A DNA stretch of 64,000 bases from an uncultured Nitrosomonas sp. (GTDB lineage Bacteria; Pseudomonadota; Gammaproteobacteria; Burkholderiales; Nitrosomonadaceae), in contig CADEDO010000006.1 in NCBI GenBank assembly GCA_902826115.1, positions 1 through 64,000 on the forward strand, in the 5' to 3' direction. The position numbers and the translations under genes were made by a program. The notes under the pieces were generated by a model, which did no database searches, was not told the DNA's origin, and was given only the letters and a program-made list of their open reading frames with translations. Positions 57,921 through 63,379 of this stretch are shown here, in pieces; the stretch's first letter is position 1, and each line of letters opens with the position of its first letter.

Positions 57921-59504
57921 CTATGCAAACTTATGTAGCTTTGCTGGGATTTGATCAACGATAACTTCGTTGATCAGTTTCTCTGTAAAGTGATGCTCGC
58001 GTGAGGAAGCGGAAGAAATTTCGGACACAATGGCAATCACACTGCGAATGGAAGCAGCAATTTCTTCCATCGTTTCCCCTGCATGCGAAACAAGTTTATT
58101 ACCAGCCGCAATTTTATTTTCAGAATCACTGACTAATTCTTTGATTTCGCTGGCTGCTGCAGCCACTCGCTGCGAGAGTGTACGTACTTCGCCGGCTACC
58201 ACAGCAAAGCCGCGACCTTGACTGCCAGCACGAGCAGCCTCAACTGCAGCATTAAGGGCAAGAATATTTGTCTGAAAAGTAATCTCGTCGATGATGAAAA
58301 TAATCTCTGAAATTTTATTTGAAGATTCCTTGATGGAATCCATTGTAGTCATCACCTGTCCTACCACATCCACACCTTTATTAGTGACCGGAGACATTCC
58401 GTTGGCAACACGTAAGATATCATTCAGATTGTTCTCTATAAAAATGGAAAGCTGATTAAAGGATTCGGCGAGCGATCGATTGAAACCCTGCTTATCATGG
58501 ATATCCATTTTGAGATTGAAGCCATTTTTATTGTTAGCCGCTGCATCGACGATGCCTTGGATTTCGCTGACGATCTTGGTGAGGGAATCGACCGTATTGT
58601 TCACGCCATTTTTGGTTTCACCGAATACACCAGGGTAATCTTTGGTTATTTTTTGACTTAAATCTCCGGCAGCCAAAGCGCTGGTTACACGCATCACATC
58701 ATTTAAGCCTACTTCGGTGGTTTCAGAGAGTTGGTTCAGTAATCCACAGATTTTATTGCCAAAACCATTTTTATTAGACAAATCTATTTTTTTGCTGAAA
58801 TCTCCTTGCACAGCAGCATCTACGATGACCTCAATTTCTGTTACCAAGTGCGATAAATGCTTCTGCATGGCGATCATAGAAGCCAGCATGCCACTAGATT
58901 CGCTTTGATGATCCACCTCGATGTGATAATTCAAATCTCCCTGGGTTATTCTTTCTGCCATGAGCGCCACCTTTGCAGATTCAATCCCTTCCATACGTAA
59001 CTGAACGGCTAAATAAACCAATATAACTGATTCAAATACGACATAAGCGGCATGCAACAAGACAATGCCAAAACTTTCACCGTGGTGGAAAATCCAAACA
59101 TCAAGTTGAGACGCTTGTAAAAAATTTCCAACCAAATGCTGTGTGGCAATGAGTGCTGCACCAAATACAATCGGTCGCCAATCCCGATAGGCCAATAAGA
59201 ATGCCAGCACTACAAACAGGCCAAAGTGCATTTCTATCAATCCGTGACTGATTTGGATTTGAATAGCGATCTGAATGATTAAAGCACTTGCCATCGACAA
59301 TCTGGAAACCAGCGTTCCTTTCAGCGCACGCCAGACTAAAAAGGGGATGATTAAAGCAGGAATGCCAATCGCCAAACTTAAGCTTAATTGATCATAGAAT
59401 AATCCAAGTACAACTGTTACCAAAAACAAAAAAACAACCGTTGCCATCATTACTGCATCGACTCGGGTGCGAATTGGTTTGAGTAAAACTTCATTATTAT
59501 CCAT
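57921..59504 (-). CDS. Chemoreceptor-like protein with multi-helix membrane sensor and trimmed signalling domain
   Basis: The 527-residue protein starts with about six membrane helices (residues 15-175), then a chain of HAMP-like units (repeated DYPGVFGETKNGVNNTVDSL and LNDVMRVTSALAAGDLSQKITK patterns), and a signalling domain with its tip [22 protein letters not shown] intact. Two parts are missing compared with the neighbour at 53197: the ascending helix is cut short, with NDILRVANGMSP joined directly to VDVVGQVMTTMDSI, and the end after EISSAS is replaced by an unrelated 25-residue tail (REHHFTEKLINEVIVDQ and on). Usual methylation segments and a CheR-binding tail are absent. It may act in a signalling array without normal adaptation, or be decaying. 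Confidence 0.82.
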   Translation of the reverse strand: MDNNEVLLKPIRTRVDAVMMATVVFLFLVTVVLGLFYDQLSLSLAIGIPALIIPFLVWRALKGTLVSRLSMASALIIQIAIQIQISHGLIEMHFGLFVVLAFLLAYRDWRPIVFGAALIATQHLVGNFLQASQLDVWIFHHGESFGIVLLHAAYVVFESVILVYLAVQLRMEGIESAKVALMAERITQGDLNYHIEVDHQSESSGMLASMIAMQKHLSHLVTEIEVIVDAAVQGDFSKKIDLSNKNGFGNKICGLLNQLSETTEVGLNDVMRVTSALAAGDLSQKITKDYPGVFGETKNGVNNTVDSLTKIVSEIQGIVDAAANNKNGFNLKMDIHDKQGFNRSLAESFNQLSIFIENNLNDILRVANGMSPVTNKGVDVVGQVMTTMDSIKESSNKISEIIFIIDEITFQTNILALNAAVEAARAGSQGRGFAVVAGEVRTLSQRVAAAASEIKELVSDSENKIAAGNKLVSHAGETMEEIAASIRSVIAIVSEISSASSREHHFTEKLINEVIVDQIPAKLHKFA

Positions 59505-59921: not shown

Positions 59922-60923
59922 TTAATGATTGGCTGCCTGCAAGACAGAGGTATTCAAATACGGTGGAATCAGTACCCGAATGGGTCGCGGACTGATGCTA
60001 AATTCGACCGTACTTTCAGCTTCGATATCGCGATTGCGGAAGTAATCACCATCAACCTGCAATGGATAAGATTTTTCATGCAGGGTACAAGCGATGTTTT
60101 TTCCTGAGAAAAACTGCATAGGCAGGTTTGCGGGCTTGCGTTGCAAGATTTTCATGGCTTTGATCAGTTCGTGTTGATGCCGTGCACCGGGTAAGAATCC
60201 CAGTACCAGCTCGTTTTTGGAGGGATTAGCCGCAGGTACGAGTTGCAAGTTTCTGGCATAAGCTGAATTGTTAGCGATAATGATATATCCGGAGCCATGA
60301 TCGATCACTGGTTCGCCGTCAATACTGACGGATACTGTTGGATGATGCAACGCACACAAGGCTTTGAGTCCATGCCAGACATAGATTGAATCATTCAAAG
60401 GGCCTTTTCTTTTACCAATATTTTTAACCGTGAGCGAATCCAGGCCCATGGATGCCATATTGAAAAATGGTTTTTCCCCTTGAATACCTTTACCACTGAT
60501 CAAACCGTAAAATTGTTGCAGACAAGTGCCTGAGGTGATCGATTGCAACAGATCTTCCGCGCTGGCGCTCATTTCATAAAACCGCGCAAATAGCGATTCA
60601 TTTCCACCTGGAATCGCGTAAATGGGCGTGGCTGTCTTATTGATGATATCTAAAAGCTTGCGTATGGTCCCATCGCCACCGACTACCACAACAAGATCGC
60701 TGGCAGCAATGTCATCAGAGATACGCATGTAACCTTTCATTTTTTTCTCAGATGTGCGCACTTCAACGGTTTTTCCATGGAACATCAACTCCGTTTCCAG
60801 CTTGCAAGCCATGGCTTCAGTGTTTCCTGCGCTGGATATTGGATTGTAAATAATCAGGATCTTTTGTGGAGAGGGTATTTTGATGACCATCGGGTTGTGT
60901 TGGAATAAAAGATTGTCTTTCAT
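59922..60923 (-). CDS. Diacylglycerol kinase-fold lipid kinase (YegS/DagK family)
   Basis: The 333-residue protein has the lipid-kinase catalytic fold: IIYNPISSAGNTEAM near the start, the nucleotide-binding GGDGT motif at 82-86, and PGGNESLFARF where the family usually has a PxGTxNxFA pattern. Members phosphorylate lipids such as diacylglycerol, ceramide or sphingosine; the lipid here is unknown. Two further genes on the same strand upstream encode a glycosyltransferase and an LpxH-like phosphatase, suggesting one pathway for an envelope lipid. The ATG at 60923 lacks a strong ribosome site. Confidence 0.85.
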   Translation of the reverse strand: MKDNLLFQHNPMVIKIPSPQKILIIYNPISSAGNTEAMACKLETELMFHGKTVEVRTSEKKMKGYMRISDDIAASDLVVVVGGDGTIRKLLDIINKTATPIYAIPGGNESLFARFYEMSASAEDLLQSITSGTCLQQFYGLISGKGIQGEKPFFNMASMGLDSLTVKNIGKRKGPLNDSIYVWHGLKALCALHHPTVSVSIDGEPVIDHGSGYIIIANNSAYARNLQLVPAANPSKNELVLGFLPGARHQHELIKAMKILQRKPANLPMQFFSGKNIACTLHEKSYPLQVDGDYFRNRDIEAESTVEFSISPRPIRVLIPPYLNTSVLQAANH

Positions 60924-61011
60924 ATCTGAGTTTAAAAATTTCTCTAATGGTTAGAATAAATCACTGGTGAATCAAAATGATAGTTCTGCTGATAAAATTT
61001 CAGTGACAGTA

Positions 61012-62049
61012 TCAATCAACCGGGATTACCTTAACATCCGACCATATCTGACGACACCAGGATGGATCAATGGGCAGCATACCGTCCTTGATCCATTGCA
61101 CTAGATATTTTGCCGTGTTGGGGTAAGTCACTTGTATAGCCTTGGATTCATACAGCCATTGCTCAATTATTTTCGCATCGACGCTGTGCATCATTTTTCC
61201 GTATCCTAATAGTTGAAGAGCCGCTGCATTGGAAGTTTGTTCCATTTGTGCATGCACAGGTTTTACCAGGATTTTTTTGCCCAGTTGCAATGATTCGCTG
61301 GCCAGCTCAAAACCAGCATTGCAAATGATACCGGTACAATCCGACAAATCTTTTTGGAACCCGTGTAGAGACAATGGCTTGCAATGAATATGCGCATAAG
61401 GCGAAGTCACATTCTCTGGAGAATAAATAAAGAATTCAAATTCCTTGAAGGGCGATAACAGTTTCATCACCTGTTGCTGATCTTCAAAGGGCAGATAGAT
61501 CACTACTTTATTTCTCTGTATCTGCTGAGCAATGATCGGAGTTTCAATCACAGGTGGCAAAATAGGTTGATCGAAATGATGCCAATGCAAACCGATGCCA
61601 ATATCAACCGGAGCAAAATTTCTCATCACCGCTTCGGAAACCGGATCAGTGCCTGCGCGGGGAATGTGGTATTGGAATGCATATTGATGACTGATACCTA
61701 TGGTTTTTTTGTTCTGTTGGCGCGCTGCCCAGGCAGTGATGGGTTCGTAATCACAAATCACCACATCGTAACCGCTTAAATCCAACTGTTTGATGTCTTT
61801 TAGAAAACGTAGTGGCTTGGATTGCAATACTGTTTGCAGATGATTGATTTTGCCATTCTGAGTGCTGAACGTCAGACCATTGCGCCATTGATAGCCGTTA
61901 AACACTTCCATATCGAAAAATTTATCTTGCGGCCTGCCAGTAAATTGATAAGTGACTTCAAGATTAGCAGCTTGTAGTTCTCTGGCCATGATGCGACCGC
62001 GAGTGATATGACCATTACCGGTTCCTTGGATGCCATAAAATATCTTCAT
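61012..62049 (-). CDS. MJ1255/VC2487-family glycosyltransferase
   Basis: The 345-residue protein has the GT-B look of the MJ1255-type family, remotely related to MurG: FYGIQGTGNGHITRGRIMARELQ at the start, VVICDYEPITAWAARQQ mid-way in the first domain, and CTGIICNAGFELASESLQLGKKILVKP, the nucleotide-sugar-binding turn, in the second. Such enzymes transfer a sugar onto a lipid or other acceptor; neither donor nor acceptor can be assigned. AGGA lies before the ATG. It sits between the lipid-kinase and LpxH-like genes. Confidence 0.85.
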   Translation of the reverse strand: MKIFYGIQGTGNGHITRGRIMARELQAANLEVTYQFTGRPQDKFFDMEVFNGYQWRNGLTFSTQNGKINHLQTVLQSKPLRFLKDIKQLDLSGYDVVICDYEPITAWAARQQNKKTIGISHQYAFQYHIPRAGTDPVSEAVMRNFAPVDIGIGLHWHHFDQPILPPVIETPIIAQQIQRNKVVIYLPFEDQQQVMKLLSPFKEFEFFIYSPENVTSPYAHIHCKPLSLHGFQKDLSDCTGIICNAGFELASESLQLGKKILVKPVHAQMEQTSNAAALQLLGYGKMMHSVDAKIIEQWLYESKAIQVTYPNTAKYLVQWIKDGMLPIDPSWCRQIWSDVKVIPVD

Positions 62050-62220
62050 TTCAATGTGTTCCTAAGGTTCTGAAAGCGACGCGCATACATGAGTACGATG
62101 AATTGATACCATTCAGCAAAGCTTTTGATGTGTTATTGGAAGTTGGTTTGCATGAGATCCGCGAAGGGTAATGATCTGCTATGAGAAAGCAGCGGCCATT
62201 TTTTGGCTTTATATTCATAT

Positions 62221-63030
62221 TCAGGCGGCTTTCTTACTGGCAAGTAACTCTTCCTGAATCTGGTTCTTGTATTGTTCAAAGCGTTCAGACCAGAAAACCA
62301 GCTCCAGCGATCCGTCGGTGTGTTCCAGCAAGGTCGAGCAGCTCTCCACCCAATCGCCATCATTGCAGTACAAAACGGAATTAATTTCTCTTAATTCGGC
62401 ATGATGGATATGCCCACAGACAACACCATCAACACCACGCTCATGCGCCAGATGTGCCAATGCATCTTCAAAACTGCTGATATAACTGACTGCATTCTTG
62501 ACCTTCAATTTTAGATAAGCAGCCAGTGACCAGTAGGAGAAACCGAAGAATTTGCGCAGGCTATTGATATAGTGATTGAGGTCCAACAAAGTGTCGTAGG
62601 CGACATTTCCCAATTTAGCAAGCCAGCGGCTATTTTTGACGATGACATCAAATTCATCGCCATGCATTATCAGCAATTTTTTTCCTTCGGCTGATGTGTG
62701 CACATAATCTTGATGAATCTCGATGTTGCCGAATACATGACTGACACAATCCCGCAACGCTTCATCATGATTGCCGGGAATATAAATGACTTTAGTGCCA
62801 TGCTTAGCTTTGCCTAAAATAGACCGAATTACATTAGTGTGTTCTTGCGGCCAGTAAGGATTCTTTTTGATGCTCCAAAAATCGACAATGTCGCCGACCA
62901 GAAAAAGATAATCCGTTTCGACAGAATGCAGAAAATGCAAGAGTGCATCGGCTTGGCAACCGCGAAATCCGAGATGAACATCTGAGATCCAAACACTTCT
63001 GACTTTGATAGGAGCTGTATTCTTCACCAT
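62221..63030 (-). CDS. LpxH-like metallophosphoesterase (UDP-2,3-diacylglucosamine diphosphatase family)
   Basis: The 269-residue calcineurin-fold enzyme has all metal-binding motifs: Asp17-x-His19 (SDVHLGFRG), Gly-Asp at 46-47 (VGDIVDFW), Gly-Asn-His-Asp-Glu at 86-90 and a late GHIHHAE. The family relates to LpxH, which cuts UDP-diacylglucosamine in lipid A synthesis, but this longer branch is a separate group often next to a lipid kinase and a glycosyltransferase, as here. A phosphatase acting on a glycolipid precursor is my inference. The ATG at 63030 lies after AAAAGGC. Confidence 0.82.
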   Translation of the reverse strand: MVKNTAPIKVRSVWISDVHLGFRGCQADALLHFLHSVETDYLFLVGDIVDFWSIKKNPYWPQEHTNVIRSILGKAKHGTKVIYIPGNHDEALRDCVSHVFGNIEIHQDYVHTSAEGKKLLIMHGDEFDVIVKNSRWLAKLGNVAYDTLLDLNHYINSLRKFFGFSYWSLAAYLKLKVKNAVSYISSFEDALAHLAHERGVDGVVCGHIHHAELREINSVLYCNDGDWVESCSTLLEHTDGSLELVFWSERFEQYKNQIQEELLASKKAA

Positions 63031-63379
63031 AAATGCCTTTTTTAATTGGGTTATTCATGGCATCACAGCATAAAGAGGGTTTATGAAGCTACGTTGAAGT
63101 ATTTATTAAATATTCATGAAATGTTTATTAAAAGGAGGGGAGGGTAAGGTTGTCATGATACTTTGCTGTGAATATACAGATTCAACAAAATCAGAATTTT
63201 AAGGATAGCCGCGTTGCAAAATTCAATGGAAGTATTCATCCTGTGTCGATGCTTTATTCTGTTACCTATCCATACCATGCAAGAAAATACATCATCATCA
63301 TGTATTTAAAATCATATTCAAACGATTATGTAAAAACGGAATTAAGCAGAGAGCGTCAGGCGTTATCTCTATGGAAGTT
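63031..63379. other. 349-bp intergenic region upstream of the LpxH-like gene
   Basis: A G-rich patch GGAGGGGAGGG lies near 63136-63146 in an otherwise A/T-rich stretch. The short frame 63168-63440 on the plus strand lacks a ribosome site and overlaps the end of the GGDEF gene, so I did not accept it. Confidence 0.3.

Follow-up and report, generated by a model that had tools for sequence, protein, structure and literature searches.

PlcP-Agt lipid remodelling and a gene set of Nitrosomonas

Marine heterotrophs, Pseudomonas, rhizobia and a methanotroph are known to replace membrane lipids when phosphate is limiting, and Agt is the known glycosyltransferase of this process. Three genes that can be compared with this system, encoding a metallophosphoesterase (MPE), a glycosyltransferase (GT) and a lipid kinase (KIN), lie together in a 64,000-nucleotide stretch of DNA from an uncultured Nitrosomonas sp. 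(positions 1 to 64,000 of contig CADEDO010000006.1, assembly GCA_902826115.1), which is referred to here as the window. In the classical system a PlcP-type enzyme and a glycosyltransferase remodel lipids under phosphate starvation (PMC4796936, PMC8528852). In particular, the second of these sources presents PA3219 of Pseudomonas aeruginosa as PlcP and its operon with PA3218 (Agt1) as the source, under phosphate stress, of glucosyl- and glucuronosyl-diacylglycerol (PMC8528852). No paper on lipid remodelling in Nitrosomonas was found in the literature searched. The set analysed here is quite likely a Pho-type machinery for membrane lipid remodelling, in which a glycosyltransferase of the MJ1255 type takes the place of Agt and a lipid kinase has been added.

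The closest likeness is provided by MPE, which is 56.4% identical over 90% to a P. aeruginosa protein (tblastn over plasmid records), a value that becomes 57% over 236 aa in a second comparison. The P. aeruginosa gene overlaps a glycosyltransferase gene that is followed by an adenylate cyclase gene; from this gene order we take the trio to be PA3219/PA3218/PA3217, the last being the cyclase gene. By family, MPE is thus a PlcP-type phospholipase C, with the activity predicted accordingly. With the remodelling systems of P. aeruginosa (PA3219/PA3218), Phaeobacter, Pelagibacter and Methylosinus trichosporium, the Nitrosomonas set has in common a phosphoesterase of the PlcP family encoded on one strand together with a glycosyltransferase, lipid-acting partners and, in relatives of the window, Pho-type operators, and a putative classical olsB-plcP-agt operon occurs in the same genus. 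It differs from them in three respects: no GT4-type Agt lies next to the plcP relative in the window, where the glycosyltransferase belongs to TIGR00661/PF13528; a lipid kinase is added, joined in relatives by a patatin-like protein and in some by a PAP2 phosphatase; and each of MPE, patatin and GT can have a promoter of its own.

Co-occurrence, linkage and exchange with Agt

The distribution of the three genes was surveyed in 61 Nitrosomonas genomes, 36 same-genus genomes forming the first set. GT was present in 35, KIN in 41 (a count that takes in a 36-residue remnant in G078, a piece at a contig end in G005 and a split gene in G025) and MPE in 38 (including four relatives at 50-52% identity). 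All 35 genomes with GT also carry KIN (Fisher 4e-11) and 33 of them carry MPE (Fisher 1e-9), both values being uncorrected for kinship. Indeed, KIN is the next gene after GT, on the same strand, in each of the 29 fetched Nitrosomonas loci with a full-length GT, so that the grouping cannot be ascribed to chance; in 22 of the 29 stretches MPE shares the strand of GT, in one it is on the opposite strand, and six stretches do not include it. In most relatives a patatin-like gene stands right behind MPE, and in some a PAP2 gene stands right before GT. The earlier note on this DNA, which had read the three lipid-acting enzymes as a functional unit, is upheld by this linkage and co-occurrence. The survey of genomes that it had proposed gives a divided answer: the genes do not occur independently within Nitrosomonas, whereas outside the genus no KIN lies near GT, whose usual partner there is PAP2. 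In one relative (G020, L025:10837-12635), sulfatase-like and sulfotransferase genes follow right behind KIN and perhaps provide further lipid head-group chemistry.

Six genomes carry KIN without GT. Two of them are the contig-end case (G005) and the remnant (G078); the other four (G009, G011, G018 and G075) are the only ones among the 61 with a close Agt orthologue (E < 1e-150), encoded by a gene 44-47% identical to that of P. aeruginosa. In these four genomes agt overlaps a plcP relative (50-52% identical to MPE) behind an Acetyltransf_5 gene, recognized by Pfam in one of the loci and by its place in the remaining three, which may be read as olsB, giving the classical olsB-plcP-agt set. No genome of the 61 holds both GT and a close Agt, and the genome of the window has no Agt orthologue (best E 1.3e-6). 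GT and Agt therefore appear to replace each other while KIN stays, which suggests that GT does the job of Agt and that KIN acts on something shared by the two arrangements, most simply diacylglycerol. This exchange is the best evidence for the proposed role of GT. The four olsB-plcP-agt genomes are also at hand as a counterpart for studying lipid remodelling by ammonia oxidisers.

Promoters and Pho boxes

A second line of evidence comes from the promoters, in which Pho boxes were scored as matching positions out of 14. After removal of duplicate genomes, 29 of the 35 GT genomes could be compared: a box of at least 12/14 precedes GT in 17/29, against 10/306 other genes of the same loci and 1/1160 shuffles, and a box of at least 13/14 in 9/29 against 0/306, three of these being perfect. 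Where GT lies behind PAP2, the boxes are weaker (10-11 of 14) and are located before PAP2. In the genome of the window, pstS is preceded by TTGTCATCATTCTGTCAT, with two clear half-sites, while matches to the canonical Pho box within the window (6 at three mismatches or fewer, 6.4 expected) include none at the set.

MPE has a putative operator of another appearance, an array of 11-bp units; no other 55-bp stretch of the window shows an 11-bp periodicity as strong. Throughout the genome of the window, the array motif (at most one mismatch) occurs only before MPE and before a patatin gene on contig C83. Among the 34 MPE promoters scanned, 30 share the array at about -100, the other four being those of the olsB-plcP-agt loci; the scanned rows (34 for MPE, 42 for KIN) contain duplicate genomes, as the named loci L093-L099 repeat some of them. 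In 18 other genomes most matches to the motif again stand before MPE and one before a patatin gene, with those of L074, L086, L088 and L089 elsewhere. A link to the Pho boxes is provided by the olsB-plcP-agt operators, in which units such as ATTTCATAAAA and ACTTCATAAAA stand in 11-bp register with CCGTCAT/CTGACAT half-sites. These mixed operators connect the MPE array with Pho boxes and thus favour PhoB, which is probably the regulator of MPE.

Alternatively, the set could be a remodelling machinery under a different OmpR-family regulator of the PmrA or ColR kind, responding to metal or antimicrobial stress, and this we regard as unlikely. The units of the array (YTTMAYNAA) do resemble the PmrA sites CTTAAT-N5-CTTAAT, and only 5 of the 34 MPE promoters match the Pho box at 11 or more of 14 positions; yet the GT promoters carry canonical Pho boxes, and the olsB-plcP-agt operators combine both types of unit in register.

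The second copy of the array provides a view of the history of MPE. On contig C83 of the genome of the window (L062, about 335-1660), the MPE promoter is followed by a 55-residue C-terminal remnant of MPE (40/55 identical) and an intact patatin gene. This scar is likely the ancestral site of MPE, from which a rearrangement or duplication would have parted patatin and MPE, both keeping the promoter. Solitary patatin genes in G018 and G077 have promoters that match the array motif at 20 and 19 of 22 positions, with controls reaching at most 19. The scar locus adjoins an M14 peptidase gene.

The glycosyltransferase within and outside Nitrosomonas

With 227.5 bits for TIGR00661, whose curated cut-off is 195.9, and a match over residues 2-309 of 345, GT is a member of the MJ1255/VC2487 family. 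Among its named relatives are Nitrosomonas species, in agreement with the placing of the genome in this genus. No described function of the MJ1255/VC2487/PF13528 family was found in the literature searched. In one paper VC2487 is called a putative glycosyltransferase, and a ChiS ChIP peak is placed upstream of it (PMC11856585); thus, a chitin-linked control of the family may also exist. Searches by sequence for solved structures of GT gave nothing with the single protein and weak matches with a profile. A structure model built from 38 sequences (pLDDT 93.5) has a GT-B fold over its whole length and matches UDP-dependent glycosyltransferases, among them YojK (Z 23.7, rmsd 3.3, 305 aligned), yeast sterol glucosyltransferase (Z 22.2, rmsd 3.3, 305 aligned) and MurG (3s2u; Z 22.1, rmsd 3.6, 284 aligned).

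Outside Nitrosomonas, GT keeps a different company. The best 80 of at least 553 named GT loci, 73 of them from other genera, have PAP2 directly 5' of GT in 67 cases (62 called, 5 more by tblastn), and these pairs span methanotrophs to Vibrio, Shewanella and Aeromonas. The PAP2 promoters were scored with one locus per genus, for loci with an adjacent PAP2 call and at least 250 bp upstream: a Pho box of at least 11/14 is found in 12/32 against 14/436 controls, and one of at least 12/14 in 3/32 against 4/436. Apparent fusions of PAP2 and GT were rejected, as the over-long GT open reading frames (ORFs) are frames that overlap a separate PAP2 gene. Two of the records filed as plasmids are chromosome-like in size, NZ_AP026896.1 (4.94 Mb, Aeromonas caviae) and CP090106.1 (3.72 Mb, Sinorhizobium meliloti pSymB).

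On balance, these data incline us to the view that phosphate starvation calls on a second diacylglycerol glycosyltransferase of separate origin, the MJ1255/VC2487 family, which replaces Agt in most Nitrosomonas carrying either, is paired with a PAP2 phosphatidate phosphatase in methanotrophs, Vibrio, Shewanella, Aeromonas and many other Gammaproteobacteria (as a PAP2-GT glycolipid route that needs no neighbouring plcP) and has been complemented in Nitrosomonas by a diacylglycerol kinase as a brake. If so, ammonia oxidisers, gammaproteobacterial methanotrophs and many Gammaproteobacteria would escape surveys that use agt as a marker, while a large orphan glycosyltransferase family would gain a testable substrate, product and inducing condition. 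In P. aeruginosa, glycolipids of the PlcP-Agt type are reported to be protective against an antibiotic (PMC8528852), and the same question therefore arises for ammonia oxidisers, methanotrophs and other Gammaproteobacteria.

The frequent pairing with PAP2 (67 of the best 80 named loci) and the match of the model to MurG would also suit an enzyme acting on undecaprenyl or another polyprenyl carrier, with PAP2, whose family takes in undecaprenyl pyrophosphate phosphatases, as a polyprenyl pyrophosphate phosphatase and KIN as an undecaprenol kinase, all serving a surface glycan under phosphate stress. Such a role is improbable, since the PlcP partner would yield diacylglycerol, GT is swapped for a glycosyltransferase of the diacylglycerol type while KIN stays, and KIN resembles diacylglycerol and acylglycerol kinases; in addition, the part of the set's neighbourhood that was scanned shows no flippase, ligase or polymerase gene.

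MPE and the lipid A enzyme LpxH

The earlier note had called MPE an LpxH-like phosphatase that could trim a lipid. MPE and LpxH do share the metallophosphoesterase superfamily and a common database name, close relatives of MPE being publicly annotated as UDP-2,3-diacylglucosamine diphosphatase, and it could be supposed that MPE is LpxH, with lipid A precursors or some other glycolipid of the envelope as the target of the set. Moreover, the lipid A pyrophosphatase of the genus was not pinpointed in the 12 Nitrosomonas genomes searched, none of which has a protein over the TIGR01854 cut-off (LpxI was not searched for). However, MPE exceeds the cut-off of Metallophos PF00149 (39.3 bits, cut-off 21.5) and falls far under those of the LpxH models PRK05340 (38.5, cut-off 134) and TIGR01854 (33.2, cut-off 190.35), and its identity to Escherichia coli LpxH is 27% over 119 aa only. 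In a tree of 24 proteins, to be trusted for gross separation only as E. coli LpxH sits on a very long branch, MPE falls among the PlcP proteins, its closest relatives. Finally, an enzyme essential for lipid A would be expected in every genome, whereas MPE is lacking from 23 of the 61 Nitrosomonas genomes, many of which are 99-100% complete; MPE is thus a different enzyme from the one that serves lipid A in Nitrosomonas. The LpxH identity was rejected on these grounds and is very unlikely, and the earlier note is borne out in that the set is neither a lipid A nor a standard phospholipid operon. As a PlcP-like enzyme, MPE would cleave phospholipids to diacylglycerol rather than trim a glycolipid. 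Its sequence contains SDVHLG, VGDIVD, PGNHDE, MHGDE and CGHIHH, in which DVHLG, GDIVD, GNHDE, HGDE and GHIHH are the metal-binding motifs of metallophosphoesterases, all intact.

The lipid kinase KIN

KIN is likened to DgkB, YegS, BmrU and the acylglycerol kinases by a DAGK_cat domain over the cut-off (PF00781, 51.2 bits, cut-off 23.6), a GGDGT motif at residues 82-86 and weak profile matches to acylglycerol kinase 7cgp, BmrU and diacylglycerol kinase structures (7cgp, 3t5p, 3s40; E 2e-4 to 3e-3). It differs from them in staying below NCBIfam TIGR00147 (YegS/Rv2252/BmrU; 50.7 against 118.65), as it does below all other named kinases listed, and in carrying IPGGNESLFAR at a position where related kinases have a GTxND-type motif. 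Its full-length structure model (pLDDT 55) was too poor for a structure search. A glycolipid of the sphingolipid type, with KIN as ceramide kinase and GT as ceramide glycosyltransferase as in Caulobacter phosphosphingolipid pathways, is highly improbable, for although ceramide kinases share the superfamily of KIN and Caulobacter reportedly makes a glycosphingolipid under phosphate starvation, PlcP, PAP2, the exchange with Agt and olsB all indicate glycerolipids, and no sphingolipid genes such as serine palmitoyltransferase were seen beside the set, the only part of the genome covered for them.

The genome of the window encodes a second DAGK_cat protein (C36:12121), a different lipid kinase in a very long open frame, directly behind a gene that by eye resembles a CDP-alcohol phosphatidyltransferase.

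Proposed mechanism and its weighing

A course of events can be proposed in which the catalytic activities, the sugar, the regulator of MPE and the purpose of the kinase are drawn from family membership and gene partners. Phosphate shortage would act through PhoB, as we infer, in switching on MPE, GT and KIN. MPE would then strip the phosphate-bearing head group from phospholipids, giving diacylglycerol and the phosphorylated head group, and GT would add a sugar from a nucleotide sugar to this diacylglycerol, making a phosphorus-free glycolipid as the GT4-type Agt does in other bacteria and presumably in four other Nitrosomonas. KIN would phosphorylate surplus diacylglycerol (or monoacylglycerol) to phosphatidic acid and so keep the diacylglycerol pool in check. 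The patatin-like acyl hydrolase of relatives and the PAP2 phosphatase of some relatives would be part of the same set, and in other lineages PAP2 would supply diacylglycerol from phosphatidate. A glycolipid is the likely product, as the earlier note had supposed, although a glycosyl-diacylglycerol is likelier than the uncharacterised envelope lipid it had in mind, because the set belongs to the described physiology of PlcP and its glycosyltransferase (PMC4796936, PMC8528852).

Several observations count against remodelling of this type. Taken alone, the mutual exclusion of GT and Agt is weak (p = 0.029, uncorrected for kinship). Neither the window GT nor that of its sister G027 lies within 300 bp of a Pho box (best matches 8 and 9 of 14), so that the window GT would depend on read-through from MPE across 171 bp; in this lineage GT has lost its own Pho box and now stands behind the MPE promoter. 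Most KIN genes likewise lack a Pho box of their own, 12/14 being reached in 1/42 rows. The MPE array departs from the consensus of the Pho box and also resembles the sites of other OmpR-family regulators, so that control of MPE by PhoB is no more than probable. As non-hydrolysing epimerases score about as well as glycosyltransferases against the GT model, the match shows the fold and a UDP-type donor site and does not give the acceptor. Finally, among the 73 non-Nitrosomonas loci of the best 80, KIN is beside GT in none and MPE is in the stretch in only six.

Layout of the locus

The three ORFs are complete, with ATG starts, in a genome of 3.09 Mb (Table 1). The gaps of 88 and 171 bp between the same-strand genes, as first noted, were reproduced; transcription runs from MPE through GT to KIN, the reverse of the order in which the genes had been named. 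No terminator was found on the coding strand in the two gaps; one weak minus-strand candidate lies within MPE, and the total does not exceed that of shuffles. The 171-bp gap between MPE and GT holds no patatin remnant and matches the sister genome only.

Table 1. Positions of the three genes and of the promoter array in the window
Feature	Position	Strand	Remarks
MPE, PlcP-like metallophosphoesterase, proposed phospholipase C yielding diacylglycerol	62221..63030	-	269 aa, first gene of the set
GT, MJ1255/VC2487-family glycosyltransferase (TIGR00661, PF13528), proposed diacylglycerol glycosyltransferase	61012..62049	-	345 aa
KIN, lipid kinase of the diacylglycerol/acylglycerol family, proposed to convert diacylglycerol to phosphatidic acid	59922..60923	-	333 aa
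Promoter array, five tandem 11-bp units TTTAATAAACA, TTTCATGAATA, TTTAATAAATA, CTTCAACGTAG, CTTCATAAACC; putative site of an OmpR-family regulator, probably PhoB	63078..63132	-	

Beyond KIN, positions 57921-59504 of the window hold a chemoreceptor-like ORF whose C-terminus, judged by eye, departs from the usual pattern (ending SREHHFTEKLINEV...), and which is possibly frameshifted or truncated.

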